Origin: Cohnella sp. SGD-V74 | GTDB taxonomy: Bacteria > Bacillota > Bacilli > Paenibacillales > Paenibacillaceae | NCBI RefSeq assembly: GCF_003001675.1 | Contig: NZ_PVYW01000001.1 | Span: 248,001-312,000 of the forward strand | Length of the DNA stretch: 64,000 bases | Direction of reading: 5' to 3' | Shown: positions 1 through 48,908 of the stretch, piece by piece | Numbering within the stretch: the stretch's first letter is position 1 | How the letters are laid out: every line of letters begins with the position of its first letter | Notes under the pieces: model-generated | What the model saw: the letters and a program-made list of their open reading frames with translations, nothing else | What the model was told of the DNA's origin: nothing | Database searches by the model: none | Program-made: the position numbers and the translations under genes

Positions 1-3000
1 GTGAAAATAAAGCACGCCCGCCGGCTTCGCCGGACGGCCCAGCCAATGCGGGGCATGCGTCACGACGACGTCGAGATAGGTAAGCATCTGCAGCGACAGT
101 CCGTGCGCCACCTCGTCCAGCTTCAGCTTCGTCGCGCTGGACTTGTAATCCAGAATGCGCAGCAAGAGGCCCGCCGACGATTCGGCCGCGTCCACGCGGT
201 CGATCTTGCCGACGATGTCCATCCAGCGCGATGAATCCAACGGGAGCGACAGCGCGGGCAGCAGGCCGTCCGGTCCGAAGCTCAGCTCCAGCCCCACCGG
301 CTTGAACGCTGACAACGCCGCATGCTCGCCCAGCATCGCGGACGCCTTCGTCACGATATCCCGCAGCTTGCGCGCCATCACTTGATGACGATGAGAGGAC
401 AGCAAAATTTGCGATTGCACGCGGGGCAGCAGCTTGTCCACCGCGGCGGCAGCCTCGAGCTGCCATCTGGACGCGTCCATTCCGGCCGGGCCTTCGGCGA
501 ACAGCTTCTCGGTTGTCTGCCGCAGCGCCGCATGAAACAGCTGCCCGATATCGGGCGATTCGACCCGGTACAGACGCCGCTCCTGCAAACGCAGTCCATG
601 CACGGCGAAATGCTGGAACGGGCAGGCGATGAACCGCTCCATCCTCGACACGCTGGCCAGCAGCCGGTCCCCATACAGCAGACGGCTCGTCTCCGGCGAC
701 AGCGGCTTCTCTTCATTCGTATAGCTCAAGGAACCGATCAGCGAACGCAGCCTCGGCTTCCACTCTTCGCGTCCGAGCAGCCAGTCGTAGACCGCCCACC
801 AGCCCGGCGCCATCGCCTCGCCCTGACGCCAGCTGCGCAGCCGGTTGAGCAGATGGGTCATCGCCCTTCCCGGTTGGGCGGCGTATGCGAGCTGTTCGTC
901 CTCCGGCTGCGTTCCTTGCGGCTCGGCCGCGACAGTCTGCACCGGGATGCCCGGGAACCGCTTGCGCAGCTTGCCGATCCATTGCGACGGCAGCAGCGTC
1001 TGCCCTTCCTCGTTCGCGATCGGGTAGCTGATCCACAGGTGGCGCGACGGCGTCGTCAACGTCAAATAAGCCAGAAACTCCTCGTCAAGCAGCCGCCTTC
1101 GGGCCCCCGGAGCAAGCTTAAGCCCCGCCGACGCCAGCCTGTCCCGCTCTTCTTCCGCAAGCAGACCGTTCTCGGGAATGCGCATCGGCAGGACGCCGTC
1201 GCTGGCGCCGAGCAAGTAGACGATCCGAACGCGGTCCGATCTCGTCCGCTCGGGACTGCCGATCAGCACGCCGTCGAGCGACGGCGGCACGGCGCCCAGC
1301 TTCAACTCCTCCAGTCCGGAGTCGACCATGCCCGCGAACAGTTCCAGATCCGGCGGCTGCTCGCCCATCAGCTCGACCAACTGATCGAGCAAGTAGACGA
1401 CGCCGTCCCACAGCGGACGATGAACCGCCATCCGGTCCGGACGTCCCGCAAGCTCGTCCTGCTTCGTCCAGCTCTCGAGGCGATCCGCCGCTCCCGTCTC
1501 TTCCAGAAACAGATAGACGGCTTCGCACAGCTCCCTGACCGAGCCCGACGCCTTCAGCCGCCCTTCGAGCGCCAGCAGCGGCTTCAGCAGGGCGTCGCGC
1601 ACTTCCCGCAGCGCCCCCATCTCCCGCTCAGCCGCGGAACCGGGCTCCGATTCGTCCTCGATATCTCCGCCGTAAAGCGGAAACCACGCTTGTTCAGCAT
1701 GCCAGCGCCAGCCGTCGATTCCCGCGGCCAGCGCGTAATTTTCCAGCCGGTCGACCTCGTCTCTCGTCACTCTTCGCTCCGGCGTGTCCAGCAGATCCGT
1801 CTTTGCGCAGCGGAACACCGCTTCCGCCTTCCAACCCCCGGTCACGCACTCGAGCGCCGAGCGCACGAATTCAACGAACGGGTGATGCGAGACGCCCGCC
1901 TTGCCGTCCAGGAAATGCGGAATGCCGTAATCGTTCAGTACCGCCTCCAGCAAGTCGGCGTAATCGTCAAGCTTGCGCGCGAAGACGGCCATATCCCGCC
2001 AGCGGCTGCCATCTTCCCGGACTCTGCGCAGCATGTCCCGGGCGACGGCTTCCGCCTCCGTCCGTCGATTGGCCGCCTCGCGCAGCGACAGCCCGCAGCT
2101 CGGGTGCTCCGGCCGCAGAATATCCGACTCTCCGCCCCAGCGCTTCCGATTCTCCCAGTTCCGCTCCAGGAAAGCGAGCATCGGGTTGTCGCGGAAACGC
2201 GGAGCTACTTCCGGCTCCAGCACGGTCGGCGCTTCCACGGCAACGCCAGAAGCCTGAGCCAGCTCGCACAGCTGAGCGGAAGTTTCCGCCGTCGGATGGA
2301 ACAGATCCAGCTCGTCCGGCCTCTCTCCCGCCCCGTACGGGCGATCGACGCAGAGCGCGACGCTGACCCGCTCCGCCTTGGCCAGCAGCGCTTCGATGAC
2401 CGCGAATTCGCCTGGCGTAAACCCATTAAATCCGTCCATCCAAATTTCGGCGCCCGACAGCAGCGCCGAATGCTCCGCCCCCCGGGCAAGCCACCCCAGC
2501 ATGTCCTCTCCGTCCAGCCAATGCCCGGACAGCTCCCGCTCCATGTCGCCGTAGATCAGAGACAAGTCGTGCAGCTTGTCCGCGAGCATCTCGCCTTCCT
2601 TCGCTCCGCTCGCGCCGCGCGCCGCGGCTTCGGCGTGGTCCGCCAGCTTTGCGCCGTCGATGCCGTACCGCTTCATCTCCGTCAGCAGCTCGTTGATGCC
2701 GGCGATCAGCCCGGACTCCCCTTTGCCGCCGCGGAACAATCTCAAACTCTCTCTTCTTGCCTCGAGCACTTTATGTAGAAGCATCGCTTTGCCGTTATCG
2801 TGAATCGGCACGACCGCCGAGCCGCCCGTCTCCTGCATGACGCGGAACGCCAGCCTGCGGAAGCTGAGCACTTGCGCTCTCATAAACCCATTTAAGCCCG
2901 GCGTCGTCGCCATCGCGTATTCCGCCTGGAAGGTCGCCTGCTCGGGCACGAGCAATATGAGCGGCGCTCCAAGCGGAGCTTCCTTCAGCCTGCTCCTGAT

Positions 3001-3063
3001 TTCGTCCAGGCACAGGCGGGTCTTGCCGCTCCCGGAGCGCCCCGTAATCAGCCGTAACGTCAT
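1..3063 (-). CDS. addB: ATP-dependent nuclease subunit B (AddB), C-terminus beyond window
   Basis: Continuous minus-strand reading frame of 1021 codons that leaves the window without a stop. AddB pairs with AddA in the Chi-regulated helicase-nuclease that resects double-strand breaks for RecA. Walker A GRSGSGKT lies at residues 8-15. Near residue 811 FIACPFQHF holds the first cysteine of the family's 4Fe-4S cluster. GKIDRVD followed by LDYKSS near residue 970 is the RecB-type nuclease core. The remaining three cluster cysteines are expected in the missing C-terminus. The ATG at 3063 follows a purine-rich GGAGGGAAA. An extended -10 (TGTTACAAT on the minus strand) covers about 3116-3124. addA should lie just outside the left edge. 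Confidence 0.95.
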   Translation of the reverse strand, partial: MTLRLITGRSGSGKTRLCLDEIRSRLKEAPLGAPLILLVPEQATFQAEYAMATTPGLNGFMRAQVLSFRRLAFRVMQETGGSAVVPIHDNGKAMLLHKVLEARRESLRLFRGGKGESGLIAGINELLTEMKRYGIDGAKLADHAEAAARGASGAKEGEMLADKLHDLSLIYGDMERELSGHWLDGEDMLGWLARGAEHSALLSGAEIWMDGFNGFTPGEFAVIEALLAKAERVSVALCVDRPYGAGERPDELDLFHPTAETSAQLCELAQASGVAVEAPTVLEPEVAPRFRDNPMLAFLERNWENRKRWGGESDILRPEHPSCGLSLREAANRRTEAEAVARDMLRRVREDGSRWRDMAVFARKLDDYADLLEAVLNDYGIPHFLDGKAGVSHHPFVEFVRSALECVTGGWKAEAVFRCAKTDLLDTPERRVTRDEVDRLENYALAAGIDGWRWHAEQAWFPLYGGDIEDESEPGSAAEREMGALREVRDALLKPLLALEGRLKASGSVRELCEAVYLFLEETGAADRLESWTKQDELAGRPDRMAVHRPLWDGVVYLLDQLVELMGEQPPDLELFAGMVDSGLEELKLGAVPPSLDGVLIGSPERTRSDRVRIVYLLGASDGVLPMRIPENGLLAEEERDRLASAGLKLAPGARRRLLDEEFLAYLTLTTPSRHLWISYPIANEEGQTLLPSQWIGKLRKRFPGIPVQTVAAEPQGTQPEDEQLAYAAQPGRAMTHLLNRLRSWRQGEAMAPGWWAVYDWLLGREEWKPRLRSLIGSLSYTNEEKPLSPETSRLLYGDRLLASVSRMERFIACPFQHFAVHGLRLQERRLYRVESPDIGQLFHAALRQTTEKLFAEGPAGMDASRWQLEAAAAVDKLLPRVQSQILLSSHRHQVMARKLRDIVTKASAMLGEHAALSAFKPVGLELSFGPDGLLPALSLPLDSSRWMDIVGKIDRVDAAESSAGLLLRILDYKSSATKLKLDEVAHGLSLQMLTYLDVVVTHAPHWLGRPAKPAGVLYFH

Positions 3064-3193
3064 GCGTTTCCCTCCGCTTTCTATTAAATCCGATTCATCC
3101 TCTATCTCGTTGAGTATTGTAACATATTTGAGAAAATGAAGAGCGGGCCTGCCATCCCCCAAATATTGCACAAATTATTGACGCCCCGTATTC

Positions 3194-3880: not shown

Positions 3881-4050
3881 CGCTTTTTATCGCTCCACTT
3901 TTTCTCGTTTTCTCTTTTCAAATTTACCACTGATCTACTCTTGTGGATATAAATTCTATATGACAAGTTAGCAATAATGATCCAAATCTGAAGAATACCC
4001 ATCTTTTATTCAAGCTGTCTCTAAAGATAATGATATGTTATTTGAAAAAA

Positions 4051-4400
4051 ACTACGGCTGACCCATTCGCGGACATCCACTCGTAACATTGAAGTTCTTC
4101 ACCAAGCGAGTTGCTCTAGAAAGTCGTGTAACGCCTCCTCTACGGTGCTCAAACGAGGGGGATTGTTCTAAGAAATCGAGTAACGTCACCCGATTGGCGG
4201 TCGAACGGAGGGCGTTGTTCTAAGAAATCGAGTAACGTCACCCGATTGGCGGTCGAACGGAGGGCGTTGTTCTAAAAAGTCGTGTAACGTCTCCCCCATA
4301 GTGCTCAAACAAAAAGCGTTGTTCTAAAAAAACGCACATCGGCACACCAGACTAGGCTCTGGCGAAGGCTGTATGTCAATTGAGCAGTGGTAGAAAAAAT
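4051..4400. repeat. Interspersed repeat element, copy A, with four 52-bp tandem units
   Basis: Four units of exactly 52 bp begin at 4111, 4163, 4215 and 4267, each opening with TTGYTCTA; units 2 and 3 are identical. They are flanked by a head (ACTACGGCTGACCCATTCGC, 4051-4070) and a tail (about 4319-4400) that recur in a second copy at 19466-19706. Two unit types alternate: one carries GGTGCTCAAAC-like sequence, the other GATTGGCGGTCGAACGG. A-runs bound both ends. No coding potential is evident. The tail ends against the mrp operon terminator. Confidence 0.9.
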
Positions 4401-4402
4401 AC

Positions 4403-4455
4403 TAAAAAACCAACAATCCACACGAGACCTGTCGCAGTCATGTGAATTGTTGGTT
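4403..4455 (-). terminator. Intrinsic terminator of the mrp operon
   Basis: On the minus strand, AACCAACAAT at 4446-4455 pairs with ATTGTTGGTT at 4408-4417. Internal sequence extends the stem with G-U pairs, and a U-run follows at 4404-4409. It lies just downstream of mrpG. Confidence 0.85.
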
Positions 4456-19368: not shown

Positions 19369-19465
19369 AAATCAACATCCTCCTTATCGGTTGCTCCGCG
19401 GCAGCAATGCGCATCGCAATTACTCCAATAGGTTTTCCCGGGCCTTCGCACTTATACTATAAAAA

Positions 19466-19706
19466 ACTGCGGCTGACCCATTCGCGTACAAGGACACGTA
19501 ACATTGAAGTTCTTCGCAAAACGAGTTGTTCTAAAAAGTCGCGTATCGTCTCCCCCATGGTGCTCAAACGAGGGTATTGTTCTAAAAAGTCGAGTAACGT
19601 CTCCCGATTGGCGGTCGAACGGAGGGGGTTGATCTAAAGAATCGCGCATCGGCACTCCAGGCTAGGATCTGGCGAAGGCTGTGTGTCAATTGAGCAGTGG
19701 CAGAAA
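19466..19706. repeat. Interspersed repeat element, copy B, with two tandem units
   Basis: Same head and tail as copy A (ACTGCGGCTGACCCATTCGC at 19466-19485; GTCAATTGAGCAGTGG near 19685-19700). It contains only two units, starting at 19526 (51 bp) and 19577 (52 bp), one of each type, before the tail unit at 19629. The orientation is the same as copy A, and the tail again runs into an A-run shared with a minus-strand terminator, here that of dnaJ. Confidence 0.9.
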
Positions 19707-19740
19707 AAAAACGGCCGCCAGCGTCAGGCTGGTCGGCCGT
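19704..19740 (-). terminator. Terminator of dnaJ (heat-shock operon)
   Basis: ACGGCCG and CCAGC pair with GCTGG and CGGCCGT across 19711-19740, and a U-run follows on the minus strand (A-run 19704-19711). Confidence 0.88.
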
Positions 19741-48564: not shown

Positions 48565-48835
48565 ATAAAAAAGCTCCCGCCCCCAGCGTTGTCGCTAGGG
48601 ACGAGAGCGTATCTCCCGTGGTACCACCCTAGTTGACGGCATCCTGCTTGGATGTCCGCCCACTCAGCCTCGTAACGAGAGGTAACGCCTTGCCTACCCG
48701 TCTTCGTCCGTTCGGCGTATCGAAAACGTTCGGCTCGGAGGCTCCAAGGCGAGTTCGTCGCATTCGTCAACCGGCTCGCACCAACCGCCGGCTCTCTGAA
48801 ATAACGTCTTGCGAGTACTGATCCTTATCGCAGCC
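48565..48835 (-). promoter_or_regulatory. T-box leader of leuS (tRNA-Leu)
   Basis: On the minus strand the T-box AGGGTGGTACCACG is at 48617-48630, followed by a terminator stem (48573-48608: GCTCTCGTCCCTAGCG with CGCTGGGGGCGGGAGC) and a U-run before the start. A CTC codon at 48751-48753 is the likely Leu specifier in stem I, and an AGTA-type motif lies near 48815. Uncharged tRNA-Leu should relieve termination. Confidence 0.93.
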
Positions 48836-48908
48836 AAAGTATGCCATGATTATAGCCAATTCGCGCGATTCGTGTCAAGCCGACGCCAGGAGACGGAGGA
48901 AGCTCTCT

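Follow-up and report, generated by a model that had tools for sequence, protein, structure and literature searches.

The repeat found at two sites in the window (the whole stretch of 64,000 nucleotides from Cohnella sp. SGD-V74 that was analysed) is a BOX/MITE-like, non-autonomous element with target duplication. The tandem arrays in its interior belong to a class that is wider, and probably older, than the element of this species. The reading we prefer has two layers, a mobile BOX-like element and a genus-wide array that would act as duplex DNA at the 3' ends of genes, and we give it a probability of slightly under one half (about 0.48). In this strain, a small frame resembling a jumping element appears to have carried the arrays round the genome.

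Direct reading of the window showed that copy A spans positions 4052-4393 and consists of a head, four units of 52 bp and a tail, and that copy B spans 19467-19703 with a head, two units (51 and 52 bp) and a tail (Table 1). TRF reported a 52-bp array at 4110-4331 in copy A, and the repeat search gave spacings of 52, 52 and 52 in copy A and of 51 in copy B. Both ends of the two copies are imperfect versions of one inverted repeat, CTACGGCTGACCAATT, which the earlier note had overlooked. The tail of copy A begins with a partial fifth core and finishes with the inverted-repeat end. The neighbouring genes, mrpG at copy A and dnaJ at copy B, both lie on the minus strand. Pfam identified MnhG/MrpG (1e-23), MrpF (7.4e-18) and DnaJ_C (4.9e-58) among the flanking genes and gave no match for two other flanking ORFs of 228 and 104 aa. 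No Rfam family was found at copy A (E up to 1) or at the window arrays (gathering scores). A coding repeat was rejected, as 52 is not a multiple of three.

Table 1. Modules of the two window copies, their flanking runs and the adjoining terminator.
Feature	Position	Strand	Remark
Copy A left A-run, target duplication	4045..4051	.	seven A before head
Copy A head module; opens with terminal inverted repeat CTACGGCTGACC	4052..4109	+	23/26 to head consensus
Copy A unit 1, type I, 52 bp	4110..4161	+	
Copy A unit 2, type II, 52 bp	4162..4213	+	
Copy A unit 3, type II, same sequence as unit 2 over 52 bp (one-base shift)	4214..4265	+	
Copy A unit 4, type I, 52 bp	4266..4317	+	
Copy A tail module	4318..4393	+	15/19 to tail consensus
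Copy A right A-run, target duplication	4394..4399	.	six A after tail
mrpG terminator-like hairpin and U-run	4404..4452	-	adjoins copy A but separate
Copy B left A-run, target duplication	19461..19466	.	
Copy B head module	19467..19524	+	23/26 to head consensus
Copy B unit 1, type I, 51 bp	19525..19575	+	
Copy B unit 2, type II, 52 bp	19576..19627	+	
Copy B tail module	19628..19703	+	14/19 to tail consensus, just below strict cut-off
Copy B right A-run, also the U-run of the minus-strand dnaJ terminator	19704..19711	.	terminator judged by eye

This anatomy agrees with the description in the earlier note of two copies that share head and tail and differ in unit number, four against two. Units 2 and 3 of copy A are indeed identical over all 52 bp (4163-4214 and 4215-4266), and an A-run stands ahead of each head, as had been stated. 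The two unit types were said to alternate, which is true of copy B (I-II) but not of copy A, where the order is I-II-II-I. The A-run at the tail was also taken for the U-run of a terminator in both copies; this applies to copy B (dnaJ), whereas the tail A-run of copy A stands four bases off the A-run of the mrpG terminator (4404-4409). The mrpG hairpin was left unscored by the fold-based terminator test.

A BLAST search with copy A gave 43 matches in its own genome, the best non-self match having an E value of 5.7e-81, which is not due to chance. When the sequences were read, the matches resolved into 30 array loci. The head consensus CTACGGCTGACCAATTCGCGTACATG reached the cut-off of 17 of 26 in 18 of the 30 loci. 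The null was the 64-kb window itself, with a 99th percentile of 16 and a maximum of 18, so that 12 of these heads lie above the null maximum and six do not. The tail consensus GTCAATTGGTCAGCCGTAG passed its cut-off in 8/30 loci, and both ends were present in 7/30. The start of the head and the end of the tail are imperfect inverted repeats of each other over about 16 bp. Many arrays of this species lie within the element, which is a short, gene-less structure made of a head, one to nine tandem units and a tail.

The runs flanking the strict own-genome copies were compared, and they match in base in all seven loci with both ends. A-runs flank L001, L017, L049 and L051, T-rich runs flank L042 and, roughly, L006, and TTTTATA stands on either side of L045. 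Another six copies (L002, L003, L021, L046, L047 and L052), whose ends are weaker or shifted, have flanks that agree in 6/6 cases as judged by eye. The flanking A/T-rich runs are usually 6-8 bp long, and we conclude that the element inserts in A/T runs and as a rule duplicates 6-8 bp. L045, together with L182 described below, weighs most in this respect, because a poly-A duplication is indistinguishable from an insertion inside a longer A-run. The preference for terminators as such that the earlier note had suggested was not seen: a strong hairpin with a T-run adjoins 10 of the 19 copies whose ends were mapped, compared with 19 of 29 ordinary T6+ runs of the window. An earlier stem scan, which missed some hairpins, had placed 8/20 copies and 8/29 runs near hairpins. 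The impression of terminator targeting is explained by the fact that intrinsic terminators often supply A/T runs, the real target. Meanwhile, the proposal of a non-autonomous mobile or once-mobile element with a variable unit number was upheld by the dispersal, the imperfect inverted ends and the target duplications, and there is good support for past movement of the element in this species.

A mobilising transposase with such ends was not found in this genome by searches with PF12762, which gave 0 matches, and PF01797, which gave one partial match in an open frame of 90 aa with one internal stop. An IS1595 partner, for which the genome holds no match, was rejected, and so was a REP/RAYT origin, for which it holds a single broken gene. 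At the dnaJ site of a relative (G017), the array is absent and about 60 bp of other sequence are present, which is not a clean empty site; the identity there is 87% on the dnaJ side and 71% on the other.

Besides the array loci, six further loci carry such an inverted end, and ORFs are present near them. The same inverted end was seen in G000 at L068 (both ends) and L065 (one end seen) around another interior that has no 52-bp units. A second short repeat of about 150-200 bp, in which no gene was seen, starts with CTAGGGCGTGTATGCA and closes with its inverse. It is nested inside several array elements or lies beside their ends, at L049 (G000:C8:255000-262000), L061, L070 and L087.

A different end module encloses the same kind of array in C. 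silvisoli. At this locus (L182, G031:C10:128500-133500, reverse strand 2808-3082), four 51-bp units lie between imperfect 28-bp inverted ends (23/28) whose sequence is unlike that of the own-species ends, and an 8-bp duplication, TTTTCGTT, surrounds the array. The idea that arrays of other species generally bear inverted ends was rejected: clear ones within 170 bp, exceeding every mismatched pairing, were found for 3 of 71 scored arrays; those of L182 and L133 adjoin the array, and those of L179 are far from it. L133 and L242 (G016) are flanked by GGTTAATGCTTAGGTCTC and GAGACCTAAGTAGTAACC, or by a variant of GAGACCTAAGTAGTAACC after the array, and these flanks are possibly a third kind of end module.

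The arrays occur throughout the genus, mostly without the head and tail described above, which was overlooked in the earlier note. The 23-base core pattern matches 5 of 37 Cohnella genomes, with C. silvisoli among the named matches. The paired-core pattern matches 22 of the 37, at as many as 75 places in one genome, and it is rare elsewhere (42 of 394 family genomes in all); many single matches outside Cohnella, and the one in G001 inside it, look like chance. Several counts for the pattern control were nonzero because the reversed pattern also fits GGCTA-type arrays, and G020 and G025, which match the control only, stand outside the array reading. Fifteen matches to the paired-core pattern were seen in G386, a genome of genus g32.

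From 20 Cohnella genomes, 73 arrays of 2-17 units were read, and the core in at least 67 of them is a dyad of 23 bp around a 5-nt centre that is mostly A-rich. The core of the 67 counted arrays is approximately GWTANYCGA-NNNNA-TCGRNTAAC. The array orientation was set by our own core score. Six arrays were kept outside the core counts, namely L177 and L142 with another core, L133, L163 and L134 with a variant or mis-phased core, and L100 with an ordinary core, which was excluded needlessly; the remaining 67 gave 57 distinct cores. The scanner produced no chain for L003, L021, L026, L045, L050 and L188, and L162 and L132 were dropped. A phage origin was rejected, as no viral contig matches the 23-base core and the paired pattern occurs at 80 or more viral loci, with one match at each of those listed, as chance hits would give. 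The arrays are not CRISPRs either, because the spacers of an array are not unique but nearly alike (0.154 differences per site).

The spacing of the units is nearly constant. As many as 385 of 392 intervals measure 51 or 52 bp (254 of 52, 131 of 51, 3 of 53 and 4 of 50), a figure of 98% that is partly built in by the 50-54 bp range of the chain scanner. In 38 of 319 pairs of neighbouring units the two lengths are unequal. Individual genomes lean to one value: 52 bp was found in 84/86 intervals of G000 and 24/24 of G010, and 51 bp in 21/21 of G006 and 30/31 of G032, with mixed periods in G011, G012, G026, G028 and G031. This tendency is drawn from few genomes, four or more arrays having been read only in G000, G031, G032 and G006.

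The position of the arrays relative to genes was determined with a home-made gene caller based on a GC3 heuristic, which left 2 of the 73 arrays unclassed and gives observed gap shares. The 71 classed arrays lie in 25 convergent, 41 co-directional and 5 divergent gaps. The co-directional arrays show a weak bias, 27 of the 41 pointing along transcription and 14 against it. The arrays seem to avoid shared promoter regions, or to be tolerated at 3' ends.

Each unit is composed of a palindromic core with arms of about 9 bp and an unstructured spacer of 27-28 bp. Of the 513 dyad cells in the 57 distinct cores, 81.9% are paired, compared with 22-44% for slid dyads and 79.5% after shuffling of columns. 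The covariation value of 0.228 exceeds the 0.186 of shuffles, and double-changed cells number 24 against 15.6 (0/500 shuffles as high in both cases). The two-sided-change pairs (4 against 3.8, 410/500 as high) and the pair types (13 against 12.1, 172/500) are not unusual, and the dyad slid by +3 gives 26 double-changed cells compared with 24 for the unslid one. Pair 4-20 is standard in 57/57 rows, through G.U, A-U and G-C, and mismatches occupy 93 of the 513 arm cells. Folding was scored for the consensus sequences of 67 arrays against composition shuffles. The core folds better than the shuffles (mean z -2.4 on one strand and -2.0 on the other), and the spacer of these arrays shows no folding above them (mean z -0.07 and 0.07). 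A spacer hairpin was rejected as well: CCTCC can pair with GGAGG in own-genome spacers, but the mean z over the 67 arrays is about 0.

The non-Watson-Crick arm cells on the assigned strand comprise 68 G.T, 8 A.C and 85 others. This excess of G.T over A.C fits RNA pairing better than duplex DNA, and it keeps alive the rival explanation that the array acts as RNA, in which a string of hairpins on read-through transcripts would shield the 3' end, dampen read-through or serve as the binding site of a regulator, roles that have been proposed for REP/BIMEs. The unbroken standard pairing at 4-20 and the location of the arrays, mostly at 3' ends and in divergent gaps in 5/71 cases, also speak for it. 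However, an unstructured spacer gives an RNA no cause for a fixed spacing of 51/52 nt, the direction bias is weak, the arms contain the mismatches given above, and copy A has no Rfam match, and we consider action as RNA unlikely. B-DNA has 10.2-10.4 bp per turn, so 51 or 52 bp are near five turns. Action as duplex DNA is favoured because the spacing stays nearly constant, and close to five turns, across spacers that are unstructured and drifting.

The drift of the spacers can be followed both within arrays and between genomes. Adjacent units of equal length differ by 0.073 per site in the core and by 0.154 in the spacer. Among orthologous arrays with flanks matching on two sides, L164 and L178 have 11 and 6 units (core 21/24, spacer 15/28 identical), L165 and L191 have 8 and 5 units (24/24 and 25/28), and L152 and L175 have 5 and 15 units (21/24 and 11/28). 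Two pairs with one-sided synteny, both with 52 against 51 bp, have diverged further: L044 and L196 retain 15/24 in the core and 3/27 in the spacer, which is chance level, and L164 and L193 retain 11/24 and 6/27.

The region behind argS shows turnover at a single site. The argS search gave a match in 20 of 37 Cohnella genomes, and TRF found a 50-52-bp array behind the gene in 7 of the 20 and none in 12, one being unreadable because its contig ends too soon. The palindromes at this site are of the GCCGA type in G012 and G034, of the TCGA type (51 bp) in G032, and of the GCGC type (GATAGCGCCCAAATGCGCTTATC and kin) in G013, G005, G036 and a second array of G034. In G034 the GCCGA-type and GCGCC-type arrays are adjacent, both with a period of 52 bp. 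The strain's own genome has behind argS a 50-bp array of another sequence with no clear palindrome. In the dnaJ surroundings of 29 other Cohnella genomes, three of seven arrays have periods of 51, 52 and 53. One array near dnaJ (L327 in G014, 53-843) has 15 units of 52 bp with the palindrome TTAAGAAAGAAAGTTTCTTAA, which has no sequence kinship to the TCGA core. The spacers, and at some loci the palindromes too, differ while the geometry stays the same, and geometry seems to be conserved more than sequence in these arrays.

Turnover of this kind may also come from neutral minisatellites of one old origin, whose period is inherited, whose size is changed by hairpin slippage and whose geometry is unselected. 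The unit numbers that vary between orthologues (11/6, 8/5 and 5/15), the arrays that come and go at argS (7/20 with and 12/20 without), and neighbouring units that are identical or, in 38/319 pairs, unequal in length are in line with neutrality, and a common ancestral period could persist without selection. It is opposed by the core, which within arrays changes at half the rate of the spacer, by the arms, which covary by two of five measures, and by orthologous spacers, whose identity is down to 11/28, and in a pair with one-sided synteny to the 3/27 of chance, at lengths that differ by no more than one base; we hold neutrality to be improbable, to the same degree as the RNA explanation. A selfish origin, in which a single-strand enzyme (HUH, REP/RAYT-like) with a fixed ruler would copy hairpin units into new ones of 51/52 bp, agrees with palindromic tandem units of fixed length and with an architecture that appears to resemble REP clusters, but the own genome has a single broken Y1 transposase and all units of an array point one way, which makes it highly improbable.

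Arrays of the same spacing were also found outside Cohnella. A loose pattern led to loci of genus g24 that have period-51 arrays with other palindromes, such as TCAACGGGAAAAGTCCCGTTGA and TGAGAGGTATTTATACCTCTGA, two different palindromes in one g24 genome. L205 and L210 (G255, genus g24) together show three period-51 arrays with three different palindromes in one genome. A test freer than the chain scanner was performed by running TRF (period 25-110) on chunks taken at fixed round-number positions with no core pattern; the Cohnella genomes were picked for few contigs, and the seven g24 genomes all had an earlier pattern match. Periods of 50-52 bp were found in 4/7 arrays in 400 kb of Cohnella, in 4/12 in 400 kb of g24 and in 1/12 in 740 kb from the family's other genera. 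Outside this last count, 40 kb of another family (L288 and L289) gave arrays of 46 and 112 bp. The 8/19 arrays of Cohnella and g24, two of the eight being neighbours in L251, exceed a log-uniform expectation of 4% (binomial 3e-7, with the null chosen afterwards), and the comparison with 1/12 in the other genera gives a Fisher p of 0.10. The palindrome scores mildly higher in 16 arrays of 50-53 bp, a set that includes argS loci selected for having an array, than in 30 others (p = 0.037); its z is 3 or more in 5 of the 16 and below 3 in 11.

It is conceivable, if doubtful, that the Paenibacillaceae hold a class of DNA elements defined by geometry, with one palindrome per five turns, in which the letters are replaced again and again, spacing and symmetry are kept, and each genome tends to have its own exact period (51 or 52). 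Should such a class exist, a cellular machine that reads or makes the geometry would be implied. Most bacterial interspersed repeats are defined by sequence, whereas here spacing and symmetry seem to outlast it, at orthologous loci and in two genera.

According to the two-layer reading, the element of the first layer would be moved in trans by a putative transposase, its unit number would shift by unequal exchange or slippage, and its mobility would spread new arrays. In the second layer, the array would act as double-stranded DNA that offers a palindrome on one and the same side of the helix at five-turn intervals, where a putative dimeric or hairpin-recognising protein might bind cooperatively at the 3' ends of genes. 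The bound array would organise or insulate the DNA between genes, as suggested for REP/BIMEs. This leads to the testable prediction of a protein or process with a five-turn ruler. The system shows unit-number change, BOX-like dispersal and palindrome replacement together, and it would bear on the question of why bacteria retain palindrome arrays at gene ends.

The Cohnella arrays were compared with known repeat systems. The MIRU minisatellites of mycobacteria are likewise dispersed tandem units of variable copy number; they belong to another phylum, and the Cohnella arrays differ from them in the palindromic core and in the terminal inverted repeats of some copies. As in MITEs, the Cohnella element is short and gene-less, with inverted ends and target duplication, but its interior is a tandem array of variable number and its parent insertion sequence was not found. 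At the level of titles and abstract openings, among the matches listed, the open-access literature contains no account of these repeats.

REP families are palindromic and sometimes tandem (PMC3733652, in the main text of which neither Paenibacillus nor Cohnella occurs). Like the Cohnella cores, REP/BIMEs are extragenic palindromes that are often clustered. The Cohnella units differ from them in being direct repeats, core and spacer alike, without alternating orientation, in having a strict 51/52-bp period, and in that the own genome has no intact REP-type Y1 transposase. In architecture the Cohnella element resembles the BOX elements of Streptococcus, which have the structure boxA-boxBn-boxC and in S. 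suis also boxE-boxBn-boxF (PMC3049150). There, too, two end modules with terminal inverted repeats enclose a variable number of tandem internal modules, and in S. suis the same internal modules lie inside different end modules (PMC3049150). The Cohnella unit differs in being a 51/52-bp palindrome plus spacer that is found genus-wide, mostly without end modules, and in that the palindrome itself can vary between arrays. The Cohnella element would thus work like a BOX, to which we liken it by architecture, not by sequence, and we do not call it one.

Elsewhere in the window, a T-box leader (Rfam RF00230, 109.8 bits) was identified on the minus strand at 48594-48840.
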